From Pseudobdellovibrionaceae bacterium (lineage in GTDB: Bacteria; Bdellovibrionota; Bdellovibrionia; Bdellovibrionales; Bdellovibrionaceae): a DNA stretch of 64,000 nt. The notes beneath the pieces were generated by a model that had not been told where the DNA came from, did no database searches, and worked only from the letters and a program-made list of their open reading frames with translations. The DNA lies in the NCBI GenBank assembly GCA_019637875.1, contig JAHBUW010000002.1, positions 310,001 through 374,000 of the forward strand, given 5' to 3'. Shown in pieces: positions 15,201 through 19,824 of this stretch (within the stretch, counting starts at the first letter, position 1; each line of letters opens with the position of its first letter). The translations under genes were made by a program, and so were the position numbers.

Positions 15201-16016
15201 TTAGAAGAAGTACTTCGCGCCGACGGACCCCAGCGGCTGTACCGCGAAGGTCGAAGTCTCGGTGAAGAGCAGTGCTTCGGCGAAGATCATGCCGCCGACT
15301 CCCGGTCCGCGGATCTGCAAACTTTGGATCCCGATGGCCGGAATCAAGTAGATCGCCCGCAATCGGGGGTCGGAGGTTTGTCCGGATTTGGGACGAAAAA
15401 AGGACGGCAGGGTCGCGCCGTCGCGAAAATTTTCGGATTCGGACACCCAACTGGACATCGCCATGCTGAAAGAGGGGTGCCAGCGCGAGGTAAAAGGGGT
15501 CCATTTATAGCCGACACTCACGCCCGTATAGCCCGGTCCGCCACCCAAAGAGGCCAAGAACGAATGGTCCGGGAGCAAATTCAGTTCCGCATCTAGACCA
15601 ATGAAGCCCGCACGCCCCAAAAAACTGGCGCCGACGCCCACCCGGCGGGTCCGGCGAAGCTCGGCCACGTCGGAATAGGGGTTTTCCATGCGGTTATCCC
15701 CACGTCCGATCTGCGGACTGTTCTGACGGCGGATCTTCCGGCGTGTTTCGCGCGGGGTGGATTCCGTGGGCTCGGACATCTCTGGACGCGCGTTGGGAGT
15801 GATCTCTTGCATCGGAGCCTCGGCGGGAACACGCGAGGGGGCCTCGCCGCCAGAACCGGGTCGATTCCACTCGGCCACACCTTGATCATCACTTTCGATG
15901 CGCTGATTGTCGTGAACCGGGGGGCCTTCTTCGATCAGCACGGCCGCGTGGGCCGAAACTCCGGAAAAGACGAGGACCAGCGCCAAAACGAATCCCGATT
16001 TAGAACATCCGCGCAC
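15201..16016 (-). CDS. Outer-membrane beta-barrel-like protein linked to the Mla operon
   Basis: This 271-residue protein has a signal peptide (SGFVLALVLVFSGVSAHAA), then a disordered acidic/Pro/Arg-rich linker (about 25-110), and a C-terminal part of about 150 residues with barrel-like strands (FIGLDAELNLL, GYTGVSVGYKWTPF, MIFAEALLF, VGAKYFF) ending in Phe. Its start overlaps the end of the MlaD-like gene by 17 nt, so it is the last gene of the transporter operon. An outer-membrane partner role in place of MlaA is an inference. Confidence 0.6.
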   Translation of the reverse strand: MRGCSKSGFVLALVLVFSGVSAHAAVLIEEGPPVHDNQRIESDDQGVAEWNRPGSGGEAPSRVPAEAPMQEITPNARPEMSEPTESTPRETRRKIRRQNSPQIGRGDNRMENPYSDVAELRRTRRVGVGASFLGRAGFIGLDAELNLLPDHSFLASLGGGPGYTGVSVGYKWTPFTSRWHPSFSMAMSSWVSESENFRDGATLPSFFRPKSGQTSDPRLRAIYLIPAIGIQSLQIRGPGVGGMIFAEALLFTETSTFAVQPLGSVGAKYFF

Positions 16017-16776
16017 GAATTCCCTCCTCCTGAAGAAATTTTTTGATCGCTTCCTTATCCAGGTTTTCCATCCGGAAGAGAAGTTTGTGCATCAAAGCGA
16101 AGCTTTCCTCGGCCTTCTTGGTGCGAAGTTGGCCGGTCAAATAGGACAGGTCATCGGAAATCTTCACCGCGTTGTCCACCAAACGCGAGACCTCGGGGTT
16201 TTTGGACGTCTTATCCATCAAAGCCAACGTCTTATTGAAGTTCGTGACCAATTTGTCGAGCTGGCCGATCAGATTCGAGGCGCTGCCCTCGTTCTTTTCG
16301 ACGATTTCGATGAGCTTTCCGGCCAGACCATAGCTTTGCGAGATCAGCTGATCGACCCGCGGCGGATCTTCACCCCGCACGAAAGCGTCGGGGGTCAACT
16401 CGCCCGCGCTGGAACTGCCGGGCGAGATCTCCAGAAACTTTTCGCCGATGACGCCGGCCAGATTGATGAAGAATTTCGAATCCTGGCGGACGGTGGACCA
16501 GGCCGCCTTGTCGATTTGGATACGAAGTTTGAGCTTCACCTCTTCGCCCGAAGGCGAGCGGTAAGAGGGGTCGAACTCGATTTTCGAGACTTTCCCGACC
16601 TTGATCCCCATCACGCGAACGGGCGAACCTTCCTCGATGCCCCCGGCGAAGTTGTACATGACGTTCAGCTCATGGGTGTTCGAGAACGGATTCAGCGCCC
16701 CGATGAAATAGCCGAACCCGATCAGCACCACGATGGTTGTCAGGAACAGCAATCCGACTTTCGTTTCGGCACGCAT
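16000..16776 (-). CDS. MlaD-like MCE-domain lipid-binding protein
   Basis: The 258-residue protein has one N-terminal transmembrane anchor (about 7-25, KVGLLFLTTIVVLIGFGYFIGAL) and a single MCE domain (about 35-120) with GIEEGSPVRVMGIKVGKVSKIEF and NLAGVIGEKFLEISPG. A helical, coiled-coil-prone C-terminal region of about 130 residues (LAGKLIEIVEKNEGSASNLIGQL...) follows and may form the tunnel or contact the periplasm. MlaD hexamers pass lipids between inner-membrane permease and periplasmic or outer-membrane partners. It is the only MCE protein of this operon. Confidence 0.9.
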   Translation of the reverse strand: MRAETKVGLLFLTTIVVLIGFGYFIGALNPFSNTHELNVMYNFAGGIEEGSPVRVMGIKVGKVSKIEFDPSYRSPSGEEVKLKLRIQIDKAAWSTVRQDSKFFINLAGVIGEKFLEISPGSSSAGELTPDAFVRGEDPPRVDQLISQSYGLAGKLIEIVEKNEGSASNLIGQLDKLVTNFNKTLALMDKTSKNPEVSRLVDNAVKISDDLSYLTGQLRTKKAEESFALMHKLLFRMENLDKEAIKKFLQEEGIRARMF

Positions 16777-16785
16777 GCACTCACC

Positions 16786-17562
16786 CTACGCCTTCAAAAT
16801 TGAAAACAGATACGCCAACAAAAAGTCGACCACAAGAATCGCCACAGAGGAAGCGACGACACTCTTTGTTGTCGCCCGCCCGACACCTTCCGCGCCTTTT
16901 TCACAGTTGAACCCGAAATAGCAGCTCACCAAGGGGATGATGAAGCCGAAACACGCGGCCTTCACCAGCGCGCCGAGGAAGTCGGACATGCCAACGAAAC
17001 GATTCATCGAGGTGATGAACGTCCCGGGCGCGAAACCAAGGTAAAAGTCACTGACCCACATCGCGGCGACCAGGCAGGTGATATTCGCGATGATCCCCAA
17101 CATGACCATACCGATGACGCACGCGAGCAGTCGCGGGACGACCAAGTACTGCACCGGGCGGATGCCCAGCATTTTGAGCGCGTCGATCTGTTCGGTGATC
17201 GCCATCGTGCCGACCTCGGCGGCCAGCCCGGCCCCCACCCGTGATGTCATCAAGAGGGCGGTCACCACGACGGCGAGCTCGCGCAAAATCAGCATCGCCG
17301 CGAAACCCGGAACCATGGAATCGTTCTGGATCACGATTTTCATATGAAAACTGCTTTCCAGAATCGTCACCATCGCCGCGAAACACACGCAAAAGATGAC
17401 CATCGGCACGCTTTGATTCGCGACGAAGTGAAGTTGCTTGAAGAACTCCGAAGGACGGTAAGGGCGGCGCGGGATTTCACGCAAGGTTTCCGCGACCAAC
17501 GCCAGAAACGCCGTCATCTGCTGCGTAAAGGAAATCAAGTTCGCACCCAGCGCGGTGACCAT
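16786..17562 (-). CDS. MlaE-type permease, second of two
   Basis: This 258-residue integral membrane protein belongs to the MlaE/ABC lipid permease family. [47 protein letters not shown] is the family core, followed by [19 protein letters not shown] and a [23 protein letters not shown] coupling loop. It begins one base inside the stop of the first permease (TGATG) and is followed 9 nt later by the MlaD gene. It is clearly different from the first permease in sequence, so the two probably assemble as a heterodimer. Confidence 0.92.
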
Positions 17563-18323
17563 CAGTAAACCCCCGCCGCGCGTAAGACCGACTCACCGAT
17601 AAATGACGTCAGCCAGTCGGCAACGACGATCCCCACCATGGTCGTGACCGCAGTGCCGACCACCGCGAGCCCGACCCCTTTCGCACCGCCGGTTGCGGAG
17701 TAGCCCTTATAAGTGCAGACCGTCGCCAAAAGCAGTGCGAAAACGAAGCATTTGATCAACCCGCTGACGACGGACACCGAGGTGACGATGGTGGGAATAT
17801 GCCGGACGTATTCTTCCGCATTCACGCCGGCGAAGAGGGCCCCCATCAACATTCCGCCGCCAATGGACATCATCAAACCCAGTCCCAGCAAGAAAAAGCT
17901 GGCGACGATGATCCCCAAAAAGCGCGGTAAAATGATCTCTTGGATGGGATCCGCGCCGAGACAGCGGATGGCGTCGATCTGTTCGGTCACCCGCATGGTG
18001 CCGAGTTCGGCCGAAGTGTAGGCTCCGACTTTGCCCGCCAGCATAAACGCGATCAACAGCGGACCGACCTCACGGATCGTCCCCGAAGTCGCGAGCCCAC
18101 CCAAAAAGCCCAGCGCGCCGAACTCTTTCATCTGCAAAGTGAACTGGACGGTCATGATCGCGCCGACGAAAAAACCCGCCATTCCGGTCGTCAAAAAGCT
18201 CTGTTCCGTGACCTTCCAGATCTGCACGAACACTTCCCGTCGCGCGCAGGGGCGTCGGATCATGGTTTCCATGATCAAAAAGAAAAACTGAAGCGTGCGA
18301 CCGATCTCGTTGACGATTTTCAT
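17562..18323 (-). CDS. MlaE-type permease, first of two
   Basis: The 253-residue MlaE-family permease has an N-terminal amphipathic helix (MKIVNEIGRTLQFFFLIMETMI) and the core GPLLIAFMLAGKVGAYTSAELGTMRVTEQIDAIRCLGADPIQEI. Four further membrane segments follow. The coupling loop is TYKGYSATGGAKGVG. It starts in the ATGA overlap with the second ATPase gene, confirming ATG at 18323. Together with the second permease it should form the membrane core of a lipid transporter. Confidence 0.92.
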   Translation of the reverse strand: MKIVNEIGRTLQFFFLIMETMIRRPCARREVFVQIWKVTEQSFLTTGMAGFFVGAIMTVQFTLQMKEFGALGFLGGLATSGTIREVGPLLIAFMLAGKVGAYTSAELGTMRVTEQIDAIRCLGADPIQEIILPRFLGIIVASFFLLGLGLMMSIGGGMLMGALFAGVNAEEYVRHIPTIVTSVSVVSGLIKCFVFALLLATVCTYKGYSATGGAKGVGLAVVGTAVTTMVGIVVADWLTSFIGESVLRAAGVY

Positions 18324-19051
18324 TCCGCAATGACCTCGCGCAGGAAGTCTTGCACAAGGGGAACCTGACTTTGGCGAAGTTCTTCGGGAGTCCCCTGATC
18401 GACGATGTGTCCTTGGTCCAGGACGATGATCCGATCGGCGATCGCGAGCGCGCACTGCATGTCATGCGAAACCACGAGACTCGTCGTGCGGTATTCACGC
18501 GAAAGCTCCGCGATCAGTTCATTCACCGCCGTCGTCGTCACCGGATCAAGACCCGTGGTGGGCTCGTCGAAAAGCAAAATCCGCGGCTTCAAGGCAAGCG
18601 TCCGCGCAAGGCTCGCGCGCTTCTGCATTCCGTACGAAATCTCTTGCGGAAAACGGTCTTCGACATTCGGTAAGTGCACGGCCCGCAAAGCCTCGCGTAC
18701 GCGCACGGCGACCTGCTCTTCGGGCAGACGCTCGAGTTTGCGCAGGCCGAAAGCGATGTTGTCGAAGATCGTCATCGAATCGAAAAGCGCGGGCTGCTGG
18801 AAGACCATGCCGCAGAATTTGCGAATCTCGAGGTATTCGACCTCGCTGATCCGGCTGGTTTCGCGACCATCGATCCAAATTTCCCCTTCGTCCGGACGTA
18901 AAAGTCCGACCAAGTTCTTGAGCAGCACGGATTTTCCGGTGCCCGACGTTCCCAGAATGAACAAAATCTCACCGGCTTCGACCTTAAGACTCAGTCCTTT
19001 CAAAATCGTACGATCGCCAAAACGTTTGACGACATTTTTGAATTCGATCAC
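18320..19051 (-). CDS. MlaF-type ATPase, second of two (degenerate signature motif)
   Basis: The 243-residue ABC ATPase has Walker A GTSGTGKS (34-41), Q-loop MVFQQPALF, Walker B with catalytic Glu (LLFDEPTTGLDP) and switch histidine (VVSHDM), all canonical. Its ABC signature, however, reads ISYGMQKR, with Tyr where LSGGQ has Gly. In the dimer this motif completes the partner's ATP site. It begins with a 4-nt ATGA overlap with the first ATPase gene. The motif pattern complements that of the first ATPase. Confidence 0.93.
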   Translation of the reverse strand: MIEFKNVVKRFGDRTILKGLSLKVEAGEILFILGTSGTGKSVLLKNLVGLLRPDEGEIWIDGRETSRISEVEYLEIRKFCGMVFQQPALFDSMTIFDNIAFGLRKLERLPEEQVAVRVREALRAVHLPNVEDRFPQEISYGMQKRASLARTLALKPRILLFDEPTTGLDPVTTTAVNELIAELSREYRTTSLVVSHDMQCALAIADRIIVLDQGHIVDQGTPEELRQSQVPLVQDFLREVIAE

Positions 19052-19824
19052 ATCGCCCCCGTAAGCGGACCGTGAGCGAGTCCCGAAATGAATTGGTGGA
19101 CGCGCGGATCCGGGTGTTGACGCATTTCGTCTGGGTGCCCGAGGTCGAGCACCTCCGTCTCAACCACCATCAGAACCCGCTCTCCCAGCTGGCGCGCACG
19201 GTTCATGTCGTTCGTGACGGCCACGATCGTGGACTCACGCTGGCGCTGAAGTTCGTTAATCAAATCCACGATTTTCCGGCTGGTGATCGGATCCAAGCCC
19301 GCCGTGGGGTCATCGTAAAAGACGATTTCGGGATCCAAGACCAGCGCCCGCGCGATGCCCAGCCGCTTTTGCATCCCGCCGCTGATCTCGTCCGGAAAAA
19401 GTTCGGTCGCGTGACCCAGCCCCACCGCTTCGAGATAAGATTTTGCCTTGGAATTAAGCGAATCTTCTTCCCGCAAACCCGCTTCCCGCAGTGGAAAGCA
19501 GACATTCTCGAGGTTGCGCATGGAATCGAAGAGCGCGTTTTTCTGAAAGAGCATCCCCATACGGAGTCGCAGTTCCTGCTGCTCGCGCGGGGATAAGGCA
19601 TGGAAATCGCGACCTTCGATGAAAACCTGCCCGGACGTGGGCGCGATCAGACCCGCCAACAGCTTCAAAATCGAGCTTTTACCCTGCCCACTCGGACCGA
19701 TCACCGCTACGCGTTCGCCCTTTTGGATCTCCAGGTTGATGTTTTTCAGAACCACCTGACGACCGAAGCGCAAGGCGACGTTCCGAAGCTCTAAAACCGG
19801 GTTCCCGATGCTGTCCCTCGCCAT
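19048..19824 (-). CDS. MlaF-type ATPase, first of two (degenerate Walker B and H-loop)
   Basis: The 258-residue ABC ATPase has Walker A GPSGQGKS (43-50), Q-loop MLFQKNALF and a canonical signature ISGGMQKR. Its Walker B reads IVFYDDP, so the catalytic Glu is replaced by Asp, and the H-loop reads VTNDM, so the switch His is replaced by Asn. These changes predict weak or no hydrolysis at its own site. ATG at 19824 is the first gene of the six-gene lipid-transport operon; the very long frame running further upstream is antisense to mdh and is not part of it. Confidence 0.93.
   Translation of the reverse strand: MARDSIGNPVLELRNVALRFGRQVVLKNINLEIQKGERVAVIGPSGQGKSSILKLLAGLIAPTSGQVFIEGRDFHALSPREQQELRLRMGMLFQKNALFDSMRNLENVCFPLREAGLREEDSLNSKAKSYLEAVGLGHATELFPDEISGGMQKRLGIARALVLDPEIVFYDDPTAGLDPITSRKIVDLINELQRQRESTIVAVTNDMNRARQLGERVLMVVETEVLDLGHPDEMRQHPDPRVHQFISGLAHGPLTGAM

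Follow-up and report, generated by a model that had tools for sequence, protein, structure and literature searches.

Two different ATPases predicted to combine a degenerate with a canonical site in an MCE-type lipid transporter of Bdellovibrionota

Introduction

The Mla transporters of E. coli (MlaFEDB), A. baumannii and P. aeruginosa are assembled from an MlaF-type ATPase, a permease of the MlaE fold and the MCE protein MlaD. In the E. coli-type system one ATPase and one permease are present as homodimers, accompanied by MlaB, MlaC and MlaA; the homodimeric state of MlaF is seen in MlaFB (PMC7367683). The mycobacterial Mce1 transporter (YrbE1A/YrbE1B, MceG, Mce1A-F) combines a homodimer of the ATPase MceG with the heterodimeric MlaE-family permeases YrbE1A and YrbE1B (PMC9882608), and its MCE ring is a heterohexamer. 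In Veillonella, MlaEFD forms a trans-envelope bridge in which the MCE system is linked to an outer-membrane β-barrel (PMC10665443). This system has neither MlaA nor MlaB nor MlaC, contains a single ATPase and a single permease, and carries its barrel as the C-terminal domain of MlaD.

Pairs of ABC ATPases with a degenerate site are textbook features of CFTR, TAP, the ABCC family and some bacterial exporters, and the purpose of the non-catalytic site in such pairs is an open question. In TAP1/2, TM287/288, the ABCC family and CFTR, lesions of the Walker B motif and/or the H-loop are located in one nucleotide-binding domain (NBD) and the signature lesion in the other (PMC7756269). All human degenerate sites have signature changes, the exchange of Glu to Asp is second commonest, and H-loop changes often accompany those in Walker B (PMC7756269). 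The membrane parts of these transporters are exporter-fold or ABCG-type.

Here we describe a six-gene operon from a Pseudobdellovibrionaceae bacterium, found in a window of 64,000 nucleotides (the whole stretch of DNA that was analysed), which very probably encodes an ABC lipid transporter of the MCE group (type VIII) with an obligate NBD heterodimer harboring one degenerate and one canonical site.

Results

Organization of the operon

The operon comprises the following features, all on the minus strand.

15201-19824, minus strand: six-gene operon (ATPase1, ATPase2, MlaE1, MlaE2, MlaD, barrel)
19048..19824, minus strand: ATPase1, MlaF-like NBD, 258 aa; D172 and N205 degenerate, signature ISGGMQKR canonical
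19672..19698, minus strand: Walker A of ATPase1, GPSGQGKSS, intact; Lys in 101/101 operons
codon 19311-19309, minus strand: catalytic position of Walker B in ATPase1, FYDDP, Glu to Asp (D172)
codon 19212-19210, minus strand: H-loop of ATPase1, VTNDM, His to Asn (N205)
18320..19051, minus strand: ATPase2, MlaF-like NBD, 243 aa; E163 and H196 canonical, signature ISYGMQKR
codon 18634-18632, minus strand: signature of ATPase2, first Gly to Tyr (Y140)
17562..18323, minus strand: MlaE1 permease, 253 aa; its start ATG at 18323 overlaps the ATPase2 stop
16786..17562, minus strand: MlaE2 permease, 258 aa
16000..16776, minus strand: MlaD-like MCE protein, 258 aa
15201..16016, minus strand: outer-membrane 8-stranded β-barrel protein, 271 aa including signal peptide

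The six coupled genes described in the first-pass annotation (two ATPases, two permeases, MlaD and a barrel) are all present, overlapping or nearly so. ATPase1 and ATPase2 overlap by 4 nt, ATPase2 and MlaE1 by 4 nt and MlaE1 and MlaE2 by 1 nt, which suggests translational coupling at these first three junctions; MlaE2 and MlaD are separated by 9 nt, and MlaD and the barrel gene overlap by 17 nt. The most likely start of ATPase1 is ATG 19824, downstream of the one in the open reading frame list, and that of MlaE1 is ATG 18323.

Both permeases match the Pfam family MlaE (PF02405; 219 and 192 bits, cut-off 22.5), the MCE protein matches MlaD (PF02470; 60 bits, cut-off 25.1) and both ATPases match ABC_tran, while a Pfam match was not obtained for the barrel gene product. 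In NCBIfam, MlaF ranks first among the matches of ATPase1 and fourth among those of ATPase2, without reaching the equivalog cut-off. Among the sequences of solved structures, those nearest to ATPase1 are MlaF/MceG, and the best match of MlaE1 is YrbE1A. The locus therefore contains all components by which membership in the MCE or Mla-type (type VIII) ABC transporters is recognized, namely an MlaE-family permease, an MCE-domain protein and an MlaF-type ATPase.

Compared to the E. coli-type Mla system, ATPase and permease are each present in two versions and a barrel gene is added. MlaB and MlaC are missing from the operon, as had been noted from the sequence, and MlaA was not found in a genome-wide search; the only match to MlaC in the genome lies on another contig and scores below the curated cut-off. 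The canonical pathway (MlaFEDB-C-A) is thus not what is encoded here. In contrast to Mce1, the ATPases differ from each other and there is a single MlaD gene.

The host genome of 3.98 Mb contains five MlaE genes, two of which are the tandem pair of the operon. Two more reside in ordinary MlaE-MlaF-MlaD loci (contigs C17 and C1), each of which has a single permease and a single, canonical ATPase. The neighbours of the fifth, on contig C12, are an ATPase whose motifs are strongly degenerate and an MlaD-like protein.

The barrel and MlaD

The model of the barrel product depicts eight strands within residues of about 126-270, with most of the barrel blocks above 90 pLDDT, preceded by an N-terminal linker of low confidence. 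Matches to solved folds have Z scores of 16.4 and 13.7 for OprF/OmpA, and the OmpW fold matched as well; this OmpA/OmpW-like assignment refers to the fold only, and homology is not claimed. The protein ends in KYFF and hence has the C-terminal aromatic residue of outer-membrane barrels. The sixth protein, introduced in the first-pass annotation as barrel-like, is accordingly modeled with confidence as an 8-stranded outer-membrane β-barrel. The MlaD model shows one transmembrane helix and one MCE domain of good confidence, followed by about 110 helical residues of low model confidence, for which no bridge length is claimed.

The barrel protein is probably the outer-membrane partner of the transporter. 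Like Veillonella MlaEFD, the system combines a link to a barrel with the lack of MlaA, MlaB and MlaC, but its barrel is a separate gene and, by analogy, may represent a split version of the Veillonella MlaD-barrel design.

The substitutions fall into one composite site

Upon re-reading of the translations every motif reported for the two ATPases proved exact. ATPase1 harbors Asp172 and Asn205 in place of the catalytic Glu and the H-loop His next to a canonical signature. ATPase2 has the reverse set, with canonical Walker B (LLFDEP, Glu163) and H-loop (VVSHDM, His196) and a Tyr for the first signature Gly.

If both subunits pair head-to-tail as an obligate heterodimer, site 1 would be formed by Walker A/B and H-loop of ATPase1 with the signature of ATPase2 and would be degenerate, and site 2 would be formed by Walker A/B and H-loop of ATPase2 with the signature of ATPase1 and would be canonical. 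In a homodimer of either ATPase the lesion would be present in both sites, which argues for the heterodimer. As judged from the motifs, the combination matches the review description of degenerate sites given above (PMC7756269), in a different architecture. Since the membrane part is MlaE-type, the degenerate-site pattern appears to have arisen independently.

Conservation among Bdellovibrionota

In order to follow these motifs, ATPase1 was searched in 60 relatives, an ATPase2 profile was searched in 369 genomes of the phylum, and an ATPase1 alignment was searched in one genome per species, from which the best 80 loci were taken. Nearly all of these 80 loci are named as Bdellovibrionota or as broader groups containing them, and they include one of B. 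bacteriovorus strain kdesi (L103). As the ATPase2 search is blind to the motifs of ATPase1, the states of the neighbouring ATPase1 provide an independent test.

Motifs were counted over 101 non-redundant operons. The first signature glycine of ATPase2 is replaced by an aromatic residue throughout (Tyr in 90, Phe in 11), one signature reading GFS. The H-loop position of ATPase1 is Asn in 88, Ser in nine, Thr in one and His in three operons, i.e. it has changed in 98 of 101. At the catalytic Glu position of ATPase1 there are 75 Asp, 25 Glu and one Ser, and all 101 copies carry the Walker B change (D/S), the H-loop change (N/S/T) or both. The partner site is untouched: ATPase2 retains its Glu in 101/101 and its His in 100, with one residue unreadable, and ATPase1 retains SGG in 101/101. 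Every operon has the Walker A Lys, Q-loop Gln and Walker B Asp in both of its ATPases, which at the level of sequence agrees with both sites binding ATP, and ATPase1 keeps its D-loop Asp in all copies. The canonical MlaF proteins used as a reference, 25 from Bdellovibrionota genomes and that of E. coli, retain E, H and SGG in 26/26.

The departures are thus confined to the ATPase1-Walker/ATPase2-signature site in 101/101 operons, one residue of site 2 being unreadable, as anticipated by the earlier prediction of one degenerate and one canonical composite site. Homologous operons with unconserved substitutions were looked for, and the pattern turned out to be conserved instead. This holds for the aromatic signature residue and the H-loop change, whereas the exchange of Glu to Asp, likewise expected to be conserved, is lineage-dependent. 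The first five genes are found together in 85 of the 101 loci and all six in 46; many loci are truncated at contig ends, and the barrel evolves fast.

Evolutionary history

Changes were counted on trees calculated without the scored columns (Glu and His of ATPase1, signature of ATPase2). At least six changes are observed at the Walker B Glu and at least four at the H-loop His of ATPase1, at least six and at least four at the two signature glycines of ATPase2, and none at Glu and His of ATPase2. All of these changes (six and four in ATPase1, ten in the signature of ATPase2) hit the same composite site. One site that changes again and again beside another that never does is predicted by a heterodimer, not by two homodimers.

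In the trees, a well-supported branch sets off ATPase2 (50 rows), and the same is true of MlaE1 and of MlaE2; these clades are separate from the canonical MlaF and MlaE of the same genomes. This indicates that the ATPase pair has a long history within the phylum and does not stem from a recent duplication of the local MlaF. ATPase1 is joined by a derived clade of free-standing genes. Twelve free-standing ATPase1-derived genes (L073, L075, L084, L086, L087, L088, L090, L091, L092, L093, L145 and L159) have kept the Walker B Asp and show His in 11/12 and SGGM in the signature; no permease lies beside them and their neighbours are divergent.

Among the 60 relatives both ATPases are present in 44, neither in 14 and ATPase2 only in two, in which a contig edge lies near, upstream of ATPase2 (G038, G035). 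This joint presence or absence lends indirect support to the NBD heterodimer. The operon is split in G042, G015 and apparently G016. There, a lone ATPase1 is located beside the usual flanking genes of the operon, while ATPase2 is found elsewhere with its permease genes, so that both ATPases are retained; both permeases stay with ATPase2 (L127, L139 versus L235, L236). Directly after the lone ATPase1 of G042 come two genes (L127 7714-11476) with products of about 630 aa, whose ATPase parts match ABC proteins and which resemble a pair of exporter half-transporters. In one genome ATPase2 and MlaE1 are fused to a protein of 570 residues (L117/L237).

The consensus of ATPase1 ends in QFI-x-G-x-x-x-GP, a motif that looks like the beginning of the C-terminal extension of MlaF and is missing from ATPase2. 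In E. coli MlaF the extension is wrapped around the neighbouring subunit (PMC7367683).

The six-gene operon is apparently absent from genus g3 (G002, G031 and others) and from family f12; in the six genomes checked, no more than one or two MCE loci were found, each with a single permease. Whether the absence from g3 points to a link with invasive predation was considered, but no such link is claimed, since the large family f12 lacks the operon too and many uncultured lineages carry it.

Discussion

The proposed transporter has the likely composition ATPase1:ATPase2:MlaE1:MlaE2:MlaD6; complex formation, this stoichiometry, the pattern of ATP turnover, the lipid substrate and the docking of the barrel are all predictions. 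Site 1 would still bind ATP, with hydrolysis slow or nil, and site 2 would hydrolyse. By analogy to TAP, TM287/288 and ABCC proteins, the ATP held in site 1 might act as a hinge that keeps the NBDs partly engaged while site 2 cycles. Cycling of site 2 would move the MlaE1/MlaE2 heterodimer, and lipid would pass between the inner membrane and the MlaD ring. Two observations do not fit a uniform picture. Glu is retained in 25 operons and His in three, so that the extent of degeneracy differs and hydrolysis at site 1 may occur in some lineages; furthermore, the free-standing clade derived from ATPase1 shows that proteins of this type are able to work with other partners or in other roles.

The presence of two ATPases and two permeases could be read as two homodimeric transporters in one operon, with one ATPase per permease and a shared MlaD, and the separation of ATPase1 from ATPase2-MlaE1-MlaE2-MlaD in some genomes would agree with this. 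Each homodimer, however, would have two impaired sites, yet in 101/101 operons the lesions lie in one composite site; the split operons leave both permeases with ATPase2 and ATPase1 alone, and the ATPases are retained or lost together, which renders this arrangement very improbable. A decaying or regulatory pseudo-ATPase1 beside an ATPase2 homodimer as the engine would account for the altered H-loop and Walker B of ATPase1 and for its branches, which are longer than those of ATPase2 in several lineages. Walker A Lys, Q-loop Gln, SGG, the first Walker B Asp and the D-loop Asp of ATPase1 are nevertheless kept in 101/101, which is not decay, and an ATPase2 homodimer would place a bulky Tyr or Phe in the signature of both sites; we consider this reading very improbable. 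From the motif pattern of the 101 operons, separate homodimers and a decay of ATPase1 were both set aside as unlikely.

Least probable of all appears a heterodimer with two hydrolysing sites, in which the substitutions are neutral quirks of lineages. The exchange of Glu to Asp is conservative and Glu is kept in part of the operons, but an aromatic signature residue in every copy and an H-loop change in 98/101 extend over many families of the phylum and occur in no canonical MlaF, and the Glu170Gln variant of E. coli MlaF is non-functional (PMC7367683).

An open-access literature search found no paper describing two different ATPases or a degenerate site in an MCE transporter. The first-pass annotation had regarded an asymmetric Mla-type transporter as undescribed; this can be upheld for the ATPase heterodimer, but MlaE-family permease heterodimers are known from YrbE1A/B in Mce1 (PMC9882608). 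The new element would hence be the ATPase heterodimer. If MCE transporters acquired this lesion pattern independently, they amount to a natural second experiment and argue for a general mechanical use of the ATP-holding site. The built-in asymmetry, with two ATPases, two permeases and a separate barrel, is useful for the disputed direction and mechanism of Mla-type lipid transport, and Bdellovibrio bacteriovorus, a member of the same phylum, has genetic tools.

A further observation concerns the MCE locus on contig C12 (G000:C12:15056-15790; L038 3580-6115), composed of MlaE, an ATPase and an MlaD-like protein. None of the 12 copies of its ATPase that were read retains the Q-loop Gln, the signature Ser, the D-loop Asp or the H-loop His. 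This ATPase is present in 44 of the 60 relatives, 43 of which also have the heteromeric operon; 13 relatives have neither, and three and one are discordant (Fisher p 1.4e-9, uncorrected for kinship). It is conceivable, albeit doubtful, that the heteromeric transporter and this locus constitute one Bdellovibrionota lipid apparatus consisting of a single-site ATP burner and an ATP-independent MCE conduit.
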